DNA of 64,000 bases from Luscinia megarhynchos (taxonomy: Eukaryota > Chordata > Aves > Passeriformes > Turdidae), in assembly GCA_034336665.1 (NCBI GenBank), contig CM067592.1, forward strand, positions 54,364,473 to 54,428,472, in the 5' to 3' direction. A program made the translations under genes and the position numbers. Under the pieces are notes generated by a model. It was not told the DNA's origin and ran no database searches. It was given only the letters and a program-made list of their open reading frames with translations. Shown piece by piece: positions 4,291-62,546 of the stretch (the stretch's first letter is position 1; every line of letters begins with the position of its first letter).

Positions 4291-4590
4291 TAATAGATTA
4301 GGTAGATTGAAAGAAATAAATAGAATTAGAAAATACTCTAAATGCAAATTTCTGGCAGAAACACACTTAAGGTATAAAGGTAGCATAAAGGTTGTATAAA
4401 GGTAACAACAATTATTATAAAGATTATTGGAATTCCATGTTTATTGTTTGGTGTTTTTCAAGAAAGCAATGATCTATTAATTCCATTCTTTTTATTGCAA
4501 AGATATCTTTATCAACATAGTTTATGACACTTTTTCTAATTCTATTTATTTCTTTCAATCCACCTACTTTTGAATCTACCTAGTCTATTA
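4291..4590. repeat. 43-bp inverted repeat with a ~200-bp spacer
   Basis: The left arm (4291-4333) reappears inverted at 4532-4590. The arms match at 42 of 43 positions once a 16-base extra piece in the right arm is set aside. That extra piece lies between two near-copies of aggtRgatt, so the left arm may have lost it by deletion between direct repeats. The spacer (4334-4531) is AT-rich and contains three imperfect copies of ataaaggt near 4374-4402. No terminal duplication or transposase is visible. Confidence 0.85.
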
Positions 4591-35449: not shown

Positions 35450-35454
35450 ACTAG

Positions 35455-36053
35455 TGTCCTGGGTTAGTGTTATGACTACTCCTCTACCTGCCCCCCCCGC
35501 TCTGTCTGCATGGAGCTGCTGCCGCCTCCCCCGCCCGGCGGGCCCGGCTGCTGGGCTGCTGCTGCCTGCTGCTTTAGCTGCTGCTGCTGCTGGCCTGCTG
35601 CTGCTGCTTTTGCTGCTGCTTTTGCCGCTTTGGCTGCCGCTTTTTTCCCCTAGCTTTTGCCCCAGCTTCTCCTGCCCCCAGCTGCTCCCTCTCTCTCTCT
35701 CCCTTCTTCCCTTCATCCCGAAGATCTGCACCGGCTCCGGACAGAGGGATCTGAACATCAGAGACTGCGTCTGGAAGCCTGCCACAGAAGCTTTGCACCC
35801 TTCCCAGCAGGGACTGACTGAGCTCGTCCATCCTCGCTCACCTTGGTGAAAACGTTTTGTGTCATCTGGGGATTGTTCTGTCCTGGTGTTGGGAAGTGTT
35901 TTGTTAAAATAAACAAGTTTTTTCCACTTTTTTCCCTCGGAGGAAGTTCTTCCCGAACCCGGTAGTGGGAGGGGGAAGGAGTTCTGGGGGTTTATTTTCC
36001 TAGGGGGACTCCTTTGTGAGATATCTCCCGTAAATTTGTCCTAAACCAGGACA
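35455..36053 (+). mobile_element. Left LTR of the inverted-LTR element
   Basis: Starts TGTCCTGGGTTAG and ends CTAAACCAGGACA, so its own two termini are near-identical inverted repeats. After a C8 run (35491-35498) comes a GC-rich, CTG/CTTTTG-rich block (about 35515-35640), then CT-rich sequence. The AATAAA signal lies at 35908-35913, with a T-rich and G-rich stretch after it that fits R/U5. It is followed by AATCT, the same 5 bases that separate the right LTR from its primer binding site. Confidence 0.92.
35908..35913 (+). promoter_or_regulatory. Polyadenylation signal in left LTR
   Basis: AATAAA followed by a T-rich stretch, about 140 bases before the LTR 3' end. The mirror copy is at 36798-36803 on the minus strand. 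Confidence 0.65.
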
Positions 36054-36056
36054 AAT

Positions 36057-36653
36057 CTACCATTCAGGACTCTTCACATTTTGCTTTGCTCCTAAATCAG
36101 GAGTTACACCAACCCCTCCAGAAATCTCAGCTCTCATTTTATATAAACTGTAAACAGTGTATAAAAAGCTTGCTAAATTAAACATCAGAAAGATAATCTC
36201 TTTAGTGTTCAGGGAAACCTGCACATTTTCTAATAAAGATGTAAAAAATTCAGAGGAGACAAAGGAAAGCAAAGGCTGAAAAGCCTCCTCCCCCTCTTCT
36301 CCTCTAACAAACTGAGTGCATATCCATAACCAGGATCCAGAAGATATCCCTGGAACCGATTCCAGCATCTTTATAAACCTCTTACAAGCCATCGCAACCA
36401 AGCCCAGTCCGATAAATATTTTGGTCATTATCCCTCTAGTATAAAAACTACAAATAAGGGACAGTACTGGAGCTATTTCCGGATAGGAAAATAACCCCAG
36501 AGACCAGAGAGGTATTAAAACCTCAAAAAACCCTAGTATCCAAAACCACATACCAGCTTCCATCCCAAAAAACATTTTAAATCTATACCAATACACAGTT
36601 ACAAGGTAATAAAGTTTTTTCCACTTCCTCGTGCCCCTAACGTTGGGCGCCAA
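36057..36653 (-). CDS. 198-codon open frame filling the core of the inverted-LTR element; product not recognised
   Basis: The frame is open over the whole core, from the primer binding site to the left junction. It has no ATG at its edge (the listed start would be TTG at 36651-36653); the first in-frame ATG is at 36575, giving 172 codons. Hydrophobic stretches lie at about residues 35-55, 60-71, 77-90 and 153-171, so a multi-pass membrane protein is possible. A basic N-terminal segment (RGTRKWKK) precedes them. The acidic patch GEEGEE lies near residues 118-123. It is not a recognisable Gag, protease, polymerase or envelope protein. The TAG stop is formed by the junction itself: its first two bases are one side and the rest the other, so the original frame may have continued. 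It could equally be an untranslated leader that happens to be open. Confidence 0.4.
   Translation of the reverse strand: MAPNVRGTRKWKKLYYLVTVYWYRFKMFFGMEAGMWFWILGFFEVLIPLWSLGLFSYPEIAPVLSLICSFYTRGIMTKIFIGLGLVAMACKRFIKMLESVPGISSGSWLWICTQFVRGEEGEEAFQPLLSFVSSEFFTSLLENVQVSLNTKEIIFLMFNLASFLYTVYSLYKMRAEISGGVGVTPDLGAKQNVKSPEW
36640..36652 (-). promoter_or_regulatory. Lysine-tRNA-type primer binding site
   Basis: On the minus strand, TGGCGCCCAACGT follows the right LTR after AATCT. This matches the 3' end complement used by lysine-tRNA-primed retroviruses (the Lys-1,2 type). It is where minus-strand DNA synthesis would start, and it marks the right LTR as the functional 5' LTR of the core. Confidence 0.85.
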
Positions 36654-36657
36654 GATT

Positions 36658-37256
36658 TGTCCTGGTTTAGGACAAATTTACGGGAGATATCTCACAAAGG
36701 AGTCCCCCTAGGAAAATAAACCCCCAGAACTCCTTCCCCCTCCCACTACCGGGTTCGGGAAGAACTTCCTCCGAGGGAAAAAAGTGGAAAAAACTTGTTT
36801 ATTTTAACAAAACACTTCCCAACACCAGGAAAGAACAATCCCCAGATGACACAAAACGTTTTCACCAAGGTGAGCGAGGATGGACGAGCTCAGTCAGTCC
36901 CTGCTGGGAAGGGTGCAAAGCTTCTGTGGCAGGCTTCCAGACGCAGTCTCTGATGTTCAGATCCCTCTGTCCGGAGCCGGTGCAGATCTTCGGGATGAAG
37001 GGAAGAAGGGAGAGAGAGAGAGGGAGCAGCTGGGGGCAGGAGAAGCTGGGGCAAAAGCTAGGGGAAAAAAGCGGCAGCCAAAGCGGCAAAAGCAGCAGCA
37101 AAAGCAGCAGCAGCAGGCCAGCAGCAGCAGCAGCTAAAGCAGCAGGCAGCAGCAGCCCAGCAGCCGGGCCCGCCGGGCGGGGGAGGCGGCAGCAGCTCCG
37201 TGCAGACAGAGCGGGGGGGGCAGGTAGAGGAGTAGTCATAACACTAACCCAGGACA
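36658..37256 (-). mobile_element. Right LTR of the inverted-LTR element
   Basis: Reverse complement of the left LTR, 599 bp. Two differences are visible: left T at 35511 versus C (complement of G37200), in a CpG context, and left G at 35880 versus T (complement of A36831). All other sequence I compared agrees, including the C8 run and CTG-rich block. It adjoins a correctly placed primer binding site. Confidence 0.92.
36798..36803 (-). promoter_or_regulatory. Polyadenylation signal in right LTR
   Basis: Mirror image of the left-LTR signal (TTTATT on the plus strand). It is oriented for transcripts moving leftwards. Confidence 0.6.
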
Positions 37257-38416
37257 ACTAGGCAAAGAGATCAGATGAGTGTAGAATATTAATTTGACCG
37301 AAGAGTTAATCCAAATGTTTTTTCAATTTTCCTGATGGTGAGTCTTCTTGGAGACATATTTGTAGGGATGTGTGATGCCAGGTTTTTGTTTTATACTATA
37401 TCACTCAATTGAATTGTATCACAAAAGCTACAAAACGTAGAGGCAAAGCTTCACCTCAAGAAAATAGGGAATATCAAGCATACTAGAATACAGAGATTAA
37501 TTTAGAATATCTATTTGACTGAGGAGTTAAAACAAACCCATGTTCAGAGATCTCTCTCGTCCTGTGTTTGTTTCAGTTCTTGACTAAATTTACAATCCAT
37601 TCTTACTCAATTCCATGGTTATCACTTGGTTTGCTGCTTGATAGTGAAAGGCACTTACAAGATACGCCACCCTTCACCTTTTCTGTTTCTGGATGCTGCA
37701 AATGAAACAACTGAATATTGAAGGCACTAACATAAAGTCAACTTAAATTTTGAAGTTTAGGCAGTCATTCTTCTTCTCCTTTTTTTTTTTCAGCTTTTCA
37801 AATTACTGATGCAATTATTCTCACACTGATCTGACTTTTGAAATTCCTCTCTACAGTTTGACAAGACACTATGACAGCTGGTTTAGTGAAAGGATAATTA
37901 TTTTATAGAGTTGTAATATGAGTTACATGTTCAATCTTTTCTGAGAAGACAACATGACAGATAGATATAGTAGAAGAACGACTAATATGCAGTTATTTAA
38001 GTAGTGGCAAATGTGTAACAACTTTGAAGCTATTTTTCTAGGTTGTTCAGAGAGTGTGAAATTTACTCTTCAGTGCATCAACATAGTTAAGTTATCGATG
38101 TGTCTATCATTTATCAGAGAAAATTCCACAAAGATGACCTGTGGTGATTTTTTCTAGACTTAAAGTCTCACTTTTATTTTACATTAACGTGAAACTTTTT
38201 GCTATTTTATTACTGTATTGCAAGATGTTAGAACTATTTGCTCTAACGTCCTAAGACTTAAAAACTGAATACAGACTTGATTTAGATATCACAGATTAAA
38301 TTTCATCAGGTCAGAGCTAAACTCTGACAAGAGCAAGTCTATTTGCATCCTGGCTGAAAACATGAAAGGTTTAAAATTAAATAGAATATTTCTAAAAATG
38401 GCCTTGTGCCATTTTG

Positions 38417-38436: not shown

Positions 38437-41400
38437 TCCAAACAGAAAGCTGCATTTAATGATAAACATTATTGATAATGCAGACTTCTTTGAAACATAT
38501 TTGCTCTGATTTTTGAGGCCAGATAGCTGTCTTGTGTAGTGTACCGTAAAACTTGGTAGAATTTCATCACATAAAATCCAACACAAAATCTTCACCTCAA
38601 GTAAACAGGAGGTTATTCAGCATTTCAGGTAGACAGCTTGCTGTACAGTGTTCACCTATAAAACACTTCTCTTGAAATTGGCTAACAGCCTCTTTAATTT
38701 ACAGCATCTGAAACTAAGTAGTTTCTTCTGCACCCTAACCTTTAGCTGATACAATTTGCTTGCATGGAGCACTGATTCTTGGCAAGCAGACTCATTTACC
38801 AGCAGACATTTAGACAGAAATGCATTGACTGAGTTTTTCAGCTACCTTTCTCTTTGTGCATCACCTCATATTTATGCTGCATCATGACATTGCAATATCC
38901 TCCACAAGCAGATGTGGTGAGCAACAGTGGGGAATGAGCAGTGAAGTAGTGGAAGTCTGGACTTCTGGCAGTGCATCATCTTTTACTGAAGCCTGCTTAC
39001 TTTCACTTCAAGTGCTGGCAAAATATATGGCCTGTGAAAAGCATTTCGTTCATGATACACAGGGAAAAAGGGATTTTTGTAAAATTCCATTATCTGAAGA
39101 GTTCATGGGGTAAACTTATCTCAGCTAGCCCTTTGCTGCTGGAAATGAAGCCTGTTCTTGGCCAAAGTTTGTATGGCTTATAAAGATCTCAAAAGCACCG
39201 TGGGTGGTAAGGGAAAAATAGCTCTTTCCTTAGAGGAATTATACAAAACAGCTGGCATGAAAGCTCTTCAGCATTTTGTAGAGTTCTCAATTTCTTTACC
39301 TCTCTGTTTCATTTATCTGTCTTCCTAAAACATTCTGTATTTAATAGTCACAATGACATGAGCAGACAAGACAGATTGAATCCTGGGGCAGATATAATTT
39401 TCATGCAGAAAACTTCATTCAAAACTGGAAAAATTGAGATGAAATTCTTTCACCTTCACTGTTGCAAATGCTACTCAGTGGCCAGCCCTCTCTGTTTTCC
39501 AACATATAACTATTGGGGGAGTTAGCTTTCCAGTAAGGATTAAATTATAGACTCCTAGCACTCTACAGAAATTTTAAAATAAATACTGATTGTAAGTGAT
39601 CATGTGTCAAAATTTAAGTTTACTTTTGGGCAAATTGGGGAATAGTTTCCTTTCAGGTTATACTGCAGGCCTGCCAACTTAAAGAAAGTTGTATCTGTAA
39701 CTTGTTCACCAATTTAAAAATGTCATAGCCATATTAAACTTTGATTGTACCTGAAAGATCTAAGTTTATAAATATTGGAATATGCTCTAAAAACCATTAA
39801 AATTGGTCTCTGATGGGGCAAGGGAAATGTAATTAAAGTGCAAGTGGCAGATTTCATTATTCATGGTTTGGGATTTTTTAAAGCGCCCTCTCTAAACTCT
39901 CCTTGGATTTAATAAGGACATTAATTGATAAACTGCCACAAAGTCTTGGGAAAAGTTAGCAATTTTTCAGGTTGGAACCAACACCCTCAAGTTAACTGGA
40001 CCAGTACAGACTGCACTCTGAGAAATAATGGGCTTTCTTTCTGAAATATTGCTTAATAACTGAGCACCTGCCAACAACCTCTGTAGCACCTTTGGCTTCA
40101 TTAATATATGAAGTGAGACTTCAGACTATGGGCATTCAAAGGACGGAGCAGAGTTCAGTGCTGGCGTGTCAAAAGCATAGAAGGTCATGTCACAAAGGTC
40201 TTTGATGCAGCATAAGCTTTAAAAAATATATTGTTGCCTCTAGAATGAATATCCAACAATGTCATTCAGGGTGATTTTTCACAAAATGTGGCATATGAAT
40301 GCCTCCACAAGTATATATTAACATTCCCTTTTAGAATCTATTTCTGTTTTCTGATTCTTCCTCCAAAAAGTTACACTTATGTGAGCTGAGAATCAACGAG
40401 CTCTTCTCTGTCAGACCTCACCTGTTAGGAATGCAGATTTCTTCATATTATTTTGCCAGCAAACACAGATTACTTTGCCTAATTTGAGGTATGTAAGATT
40501 CACATGCATTTGACACCACCTCCATTTTAAGCATAGCCAAAATTTCTGTTTAGATACAGTGCAAATATCAATGTTACTGCAAACTCTGGTTTTATTCTGA
40601 AGTATTTTCTTCATGAAGCTTCCTTTCTGCTCGAAAGTCAAATGAGTGAACTTCTGTCTGCCTGTAAAATAGCACAAGCATGTCCCCAGGATCTGATTCT
40701 TTAAATAAAATAGTAAACTTTCCTATGAAGTCATGGAAGTGTTCAGATAAACATGCTACTCTAGATTAATGCATAATTTAATGTATAATGTTCTCCTCTT
40801 GTCTTGATCCACTCTACTTTGATTAGTTTGGAGTCTAGGTGCCATGTTTTGAATTAATCTTATTTATCAAATAAAAATAAAAAAAAAGAAAAAATAAGTG
40901 TTTTACTTGGTAATAAAGCTTTTTCCACGACTTGCATCAGTTCTAATGGGCTAGATAAAACACACAACATGAATTATTTATCTTGGTTATCACTTGACAC
41001 ATTCCTATTGCTAGCTTTTGCCACATGTTGTAACTGGACAAAGAGTTATGATGGTTCTAGCTATAGAAGCATAACTGCACTGATGTAGTCTCTCATCATG
41101 CCACAGGACATTCCACTAGTATAAAAATGGCTCTTTACACCAAGCAGAATTTCCTGTCTGTTATCATAATTTAAGAAAAAAAGAATATCTTTATTCTGGA
41201 GTAAATGCTGACAGAAGACTTTAAAAACATTACTACACAGAAGGGGAGTTACTACAAGCTGAAGTGTAGATATGAAATTTTACCTAATATTTTAAATCAT
41301 GGCTATAACTTAACGTGCACAATCATCATTAGGATCACTATTTTTGGAGAGTTACTGTGATACTGTTTGCACAATAATTATGACATTGCTGTTGCCAATA

Positions 41401-62211: not shown

Positions 62212-62546
<335 letters not shown>

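Follow-up and report, generated by a model that had tools for sequence, protein, structure and literature searches.

An element with inverted long terminal repeats around a gag-like fragment in a songbird genome, probably inserted in one step through two U3 ends

Results

Layout of the element

The window (the whole 64-kb stretch of DNA that was analysed) contains a composite element in which two LTRs in inverted orientation, each with the same short spacer at its inner side, surround a PBS-like sequence and a truncated gag-like frame, and which is flanked by a direct repeat of 5 bp. The features of the element are the following:

35450..35454, no strand: left target duplication ACTAG, 5/5 match with 37257-37261
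35455..36053, plus strand: left LTR, 599 bp, U3 start outermost and U5 end inward
36054..36058, plus strand: spacer AATCT, the predicted unprocessed U5 cDNA end, with no PBS after it
36058..36059, no strand: non-homologous junction between the U5 end and the gag-like frame, apparently with neither overlap nor filler, as judged from the residues of protein relatives only
36057..36575, minus strand: truncated gag-like ORF, from the first in-frame ATG to a stop codon TAG made by the junction
36576..36634, minus strand: leader, from the PBS-like site to the first in-frame ATG
36635..36652, minus strand: PBS-like sequence TGGCGCCCAACG..., directly after the spacer
36653..36657, minus strand: spacer AATCT between the right LTR and the PBS-like site
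36658..37256, minus strand: right LTR, 599 bp, U3 start outermost
37257..37261, no strand: right target duplication ACTAG, read from the sequence

An ungapped search of the 64-kb window for inverted repeats of at least 100 nt yielded a single pair, with arms of 604 nt each at 35455-36058 and 36653-37256. The arms, which comprise the LTR and the shared 5-nt spacer, differ at 2 of 604 positions (99.7% identity), namely 35511/37200, where TG is opposed to CG, and 35880/36831 (G versus T). The original prediction had described two 599-bp inverted LTRs around a core of about 600 bp, and the same arrangement was recovered here: both LTRs are 599 bp long and have the form TGTCCT...AGGACA (TG...CA), with 604 bp between the LTRs and 594 bp between the arms. 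The extra 5 nt common to both arms are AATCT; on the right, in minus-strand reading, they lie between the LTR and the PBS-like sequence TGGCGCCCAACGTTAGGG, which we take to be of the lysine-tRNA type. The identity of the arms ends at the spacer/PBS border, where AATCT is followed by ACCATTC on the left and by TGGCGCC on the right. Since the PBS-like sequence lies inward of the right LTR, the outer end of each LTR is the start of U3, as had been proposed for both outer ends. The two ends of the LTR are themselves alike in inverted register (12 of the first 13 bases), so that both are plausible ends for integrase. Neither exact 16-mers nor a BLAST self-comparison revealed a second copy of the LTR or of the core within the window.

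Assembly is difficult across inverted repeats of this length (604 nt) and identity (99.7%), and the layout is known from the assembly alone, so the possibility of a fold-back or of mis-joined repeat copies deserves consideration. Such an artefact appears very unlikely, however, given that the arms differ at two sites, that the outer 5-mers match at 0 of 5 positions in inverted register, that the host flanks look unrelated rather than like inverted copies, and that the BLAST match of the arms extends merely 4-5 nt beyond them, into the palindromic CTAG; the target duplication is also consistent with a real insertion.

Several other repeats are present in the window, including a perfect (CTATT) array at 135-362 (45.6 copies, 100% matches), an AAGA array at 62216-62546 (83 copies, 98% matches) and a 35-bp inverted repeat (4299-4333 and 4532-4566, 97%). 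Beside the element, 37341-37468 and 38482-38609 are linked by two short similar stretches with the same spacing of 1141 (71% and 88%); this pair may be an old tandem duplication and is absent from the BLAST self-comparison. The latter comparison, which was gapped, also gave two weak inverted matches, 8899-9064/47367-47534 and 46496-46650/57110-57271 (170 and 163 bp, 69-70%), perhaps old dispersed repeats.

A single target duplication

Among the four 5-mers that flank the LTRs, the outermost pair alone matches as a direct repeat (ACTAG, 5/5), which bears out the perfect flanking repeat noticed earlier at 35450-35454 and 37257-37261. The remaining five direct pairings match at 1-2 of 5 positions, and the inner pair matches 5/5 as an inverted repeat, this being the spacer itself. 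In the window, 100 of 62188 position pairs at the same spacing share a 5-mer (0.16%), so that a duplication of this kind would be found by chance about once in 600 cases. Solo LTRs are a very common remnant of ERVs in birds, and two independent solo-LTR or nested insertions might be envisaged on this ground, but the flanks of each LTR taken on its own match at 2/5 and 1/5, and only the outer pair matches. The probability of an origin by two insertions is accordingly negligible in our estimation; nested insertions were rejected on the same pairings.

Because both outermost ends are U3, the locus is most simply read as the product of one concerted integration. We consider it quite probable that a DNA with U3 at both ends, by whatever route it was formed, was inserted in a single step. 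The integration of one linear DNA with two U3 ends, as originally suggested, is also the best reading of the present data, to which the unprocessed U5 end of the left LTR (see below) adds an independent argument. Concerted integration in vitro has been achieved with U3-only oligonucleotides by the RSV integrase (excerpt of PMC10209032) and with U5-only oligonucleotides by the Rev-A integrase (excerpt of PMC3790719), so substrates with like ends can work; those substrates were short separate oligonucleotides, whereas the element would have been one linear DNA. One model proposed for PFV has integrase trim the U5 end only, an asymmetry against which the accessible part of PMC1180852 argues; the present reading does not depend on it. 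No precedent for the layout was found in the open-access literature that was searched; within this literature, inverted LTRs are treated in work on DIRS-1 and in a yeast chromosome study (PMC5065131), the available portions of which do not include this layout.

The gag-like core and the parent virus

Read on the minus strand, the core runs from the PBS-like site through the leader into the part that encodes the N-terminus of a Gag-like protein, and its frame stays open over this whole distance, up to the junction. A first search retrieved four relatives of this protein and a second one, in which up to 8000 candidates were scored, at least 60; the best among the listed matches, P0005 of Oenanthe melanoleuca, aligns with 87% of the query at 83% identity. 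Eleven of the at least 60 relatives were aligned, among which P0003 and P0004 stop short of the break and all nine that reach it extend beyond it, P0014 (a gene prediction) for a few residues and then into integrase. The organisms named in the aligned relatives (Prinia, Poecile, Oenanthe, Serinus, Onychostruthus, Haemorhous, Agelaius and Taeniopygia) are presumably all songbirds.

The ORF is probably Gag-like, as suggested by its position after the PBS, by the pieces of pol in the predicted proteins of some relatives and by the UniRef names of P0035 and P0036. Pfam searches returned no family for the ORF and no Gag family for 20 relatives; among the latter, pol domains were detected in P0014, P0018, P0019, P0052 and P0060, some of them below the cut-off, together with weak unrelated matches, also below the cut-off. 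The PDB search with the ORF gave three weak matches (best E 0.084), which we regard as chance. In IMG/VR, no relatives were found with the gag-like protein, the aligned family or the LTR pattern (2 and 66 pattern matches were unconfirmed), and there were no exact LTR matches; scans of the window against Rfam (gathering threshold) and for tRNAs were likewise negative. Two further properties of the fragment may be mentioned: a 22-nt run of pure purines, AGAGGAGAAGAGGGGGAGGAGG, at 36284-36305 on the minus strand, which is PPT-like and lies away from the LTR; and, by eye, an N-terminus of the Gag-like product (36057-36575, minus strand) that is rich in hydrophobic stretches, which is unusual for a Gag start and is common to the songbird relatives.

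The element itself contains no pol, and its likeness to spuma/ERVL is read from predicted proteins of its relatives that fuse gag-like and pol pieces. The integrase pieces of P0014 and P0018 have their best matches in prototype foamy virus integrase structures. For the reverse transcriptase (RT) piece of P0052, the top structure entries, which we take to be foamy-virus protease-RT, reach 2.8e-11, a modest margin over other retroviral RTs (8.7e-9 and 1.2e-7); P0019 has no PDB match. As in an ERVL/ERV3-type element, a 5-bp target duplication and TG...CA LTRs are present and a PBS-like site adjoins an LTR, here on the right side only, while the direct LTR order of such a provirus is replaced by an inverted one. 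The 5-bp duplication fits songbird ERVL/ERV3, which have been assigned by this very property (accessible part of PMC6523648). PFV makes 4-bp duplications (excerpt of PMC3790719), so that likeness to the foamy integrase alone does not predict 5 bp. The best explanation is that the element is a defective, rearranged derivative of a spuma/ERVL-like family of songbird endogenous retroviruses.

The inner junction

On its inner side, the left LTR is followed by AATCT but not by a PBS. In an integrated provirus, the 5' LTR is followed by the PBS, and the 3' LTR is followed directly after CA by host DNA (the target duplication) and not by AATCT. AATCT alone is the predicted U5 terminus of viral DNA that has not integrated and has lost its tRNA primer. 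Since the left LTR keeps the spacer and lacks the PBS, the joining most likely preceded integration and was not the work of integrase. Autointegration, an established retroviral mechanism in which integrase joins viral DNA at ...CA, was rejected as the source, the junction keeping the spacer AATCT instead of the processed ...CA.

On the other side of the joint, the residue that follows a conserved W at the break is Cys (codon TGY) in 6 of the 9 relatives that reach it, and Arg, Gly and Ser once each. The last T of the core fits gag, and the next base is A where G is expected, so that, as judged from the residues of protein relatives only, the joint seems to have been made without overlap. Such a joint agrees better with end joining than with a jump of reverse transcriptase, which usually uses a few bases of overlap.

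These borders also bear on a rearrangement after integration, in which two adjacent proviruses of opposite orientation would have been fused via a deletion or template-switch repair. All parts of the element are ordinary proviral sequence and ERVs are numerous in bird genomes, in keeping with this scenario, but it needs a chance match of ACTAG (100/62188 at this spacing) and a breakpoint that falls on the spacer/PBS border, and it has to accommodate arms that differ at just 2 of 604 positions. We therefore view it as unlikely.

Discussion

Comparison with known systems

DIRS-like retrotransposons are not known to produce a target duplication, and the assignment of the element to this group was rejected on account of its duplication and of the single long frame of the core, which is gag-like. 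Inverted LTRs around a coding sequence are, indeed, a common trait of the element and of DIRS-1-like tyrosine recombinase retrotransposons, but the latter, according to the accessible part of PMC5633606, have a tyrosine recombinase and an internal complementary region, unlike the element with its TG...CA LTRs, PBS-like site, target duplication and retroviral gag-like frame. Passerine ERVL/spuma-like ERVs resemble the element in the gag-like core (up to 83% identity, P0005), the 5-bp duplication and the TG...CA LTRs; the element differs in that its LTRs are inverted, only an N-terminal gag-like piece is present, and both pol and an LTR-adjacent PPT are absent. Among rearranged insertions, the template-switching complex LTR retrotransposons of grasses (Sabot and Schulman 2007, PMC1950507) are likewise composite, with one 5-bp target duplication and near-identical outer LTRs, and are likewise explained by an event before integration, but they comprise three direct LTRs and two complete cores, in contrast to two inverted LTRs and a gag fragment. 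The junctions of 2-LTR circles, as described in an excerpt of PMC1180852, also involve an LTR DNA end that is covalently joined, a process thought to be blunt-end ligation and in part NHEJ; in the element, the U5 end is joined inside the gag of another DNA and the product is integrated. Finally, the aberrant HIV/RSV integrations covered by the available text of PMC5041404 are also rearranged insertions of proviruses, with host enzymes acting on an end of the viral DNA; there, large host duplications, deletions or inversions take the place of the short repeat, unlike in the element, both ends of which are clean and carry the 5-bp duplication.

Possible routes to a DNA with two U3 ends

We infer a pathway in which joining preceded integration and two U3 ends were used. 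The first step, either in the course of reverse transcription or after it, would be a joint between two viral DNAs: the U5 end of one, complete and unprocessed (AATCT, with the tRNA primer gone), would be attached without visible overlap to a broken end that lay within gag of the other, oppositely oriented one, yielding a product with U3 ends on both outsides. Integrase would treat these two ends like the usual pair of U3 and U5 and insert the molecule in one concerted step, which would generate the 5-bp duplication. The left partner may have been no more than an LTR, such as plus-strand strong-stop DNA would be in the absence of the tRNA copy, or it may have begun as a full provirus and lost all but one LTR later, through LTR-LTR recombination. 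Within the reading of a U3-U3 integration, host end joining, to which we give about an even chance, is the likelier route.

The same U3-U3 product could have been formed by an error of reverse transcriptase, with plus-strand strong-stop DNA priming minus-strand synthesis on gag RNA. The primer would be U3-R-U5-AATCT, the tRNA not having been copied, and the template would be gag of the genomic RNA; after a normal R transfer, the PPT-primed plus strand would run off the far end, leaving U3 at both ends. This route accounts together for both borders of the left arm (the PPT/U3 start and the U5 cDNA end), for the near-identity of the arms and for the lack of all sequence past the gag piece, and plant complexes with a single target duplication have been attributed to template switching (PMC1950507), although the LTRs are direct there. 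At the same time, it requires the loss of the tRNA copy, and its jump site would lack overlap; we regard an error of reverse transcriptase as possible but somewhat doubtful.

Propagation, age and significance

The element holds only a 5' piece of a provirus (PBS-like site, leader and broken gag-like frame), with neither pol nor a PPT beside an LTR. Lacking an LTR-adjacent PPT and a second LTR in the same sense, the unit is presumably unable to copy itself and should not propagate on its own, which does not in itself argue that such accidents are rare. The original suggestion that the layout may define a repeat family gains no support from a core of this composition. It is probably a rare accident rather than a new kind of element. 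The opposite view, that it is one of many copies, would imply that palindromic U3-ended viral DNAs are formed regularly in the ERVL-like family and inserted by integrase in trans, as a non-autonomous retroviral class resembling TIR transposons with a fixed U5/gag junction; as a joint claim, this seems very improbable. The difference between the arms (2/604, i.e. 0.33%, one of the two being TG versus CG) indicates a young insertion. Taking bird substitution rates of 2-5 per 10^9 per year, its age can be placed, very roughly, between a few hundred thousand and about a million years.

A transcript started in either LTR would enter the other LTR in antisense and could give a long hairpin RNA. If the proposed reading is true, the inner border, which keeps the spacer and loses the PBS, would provide a sequence rule by which similar inserts may be found in genomes. 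The element would then be a natural and inherited example of a reaction that, to our knowledge, is otherwise known only from test-tube substrates, namely the insertion of a DNA with like (U3) ends by a retroviral integrase, here in a living animal.
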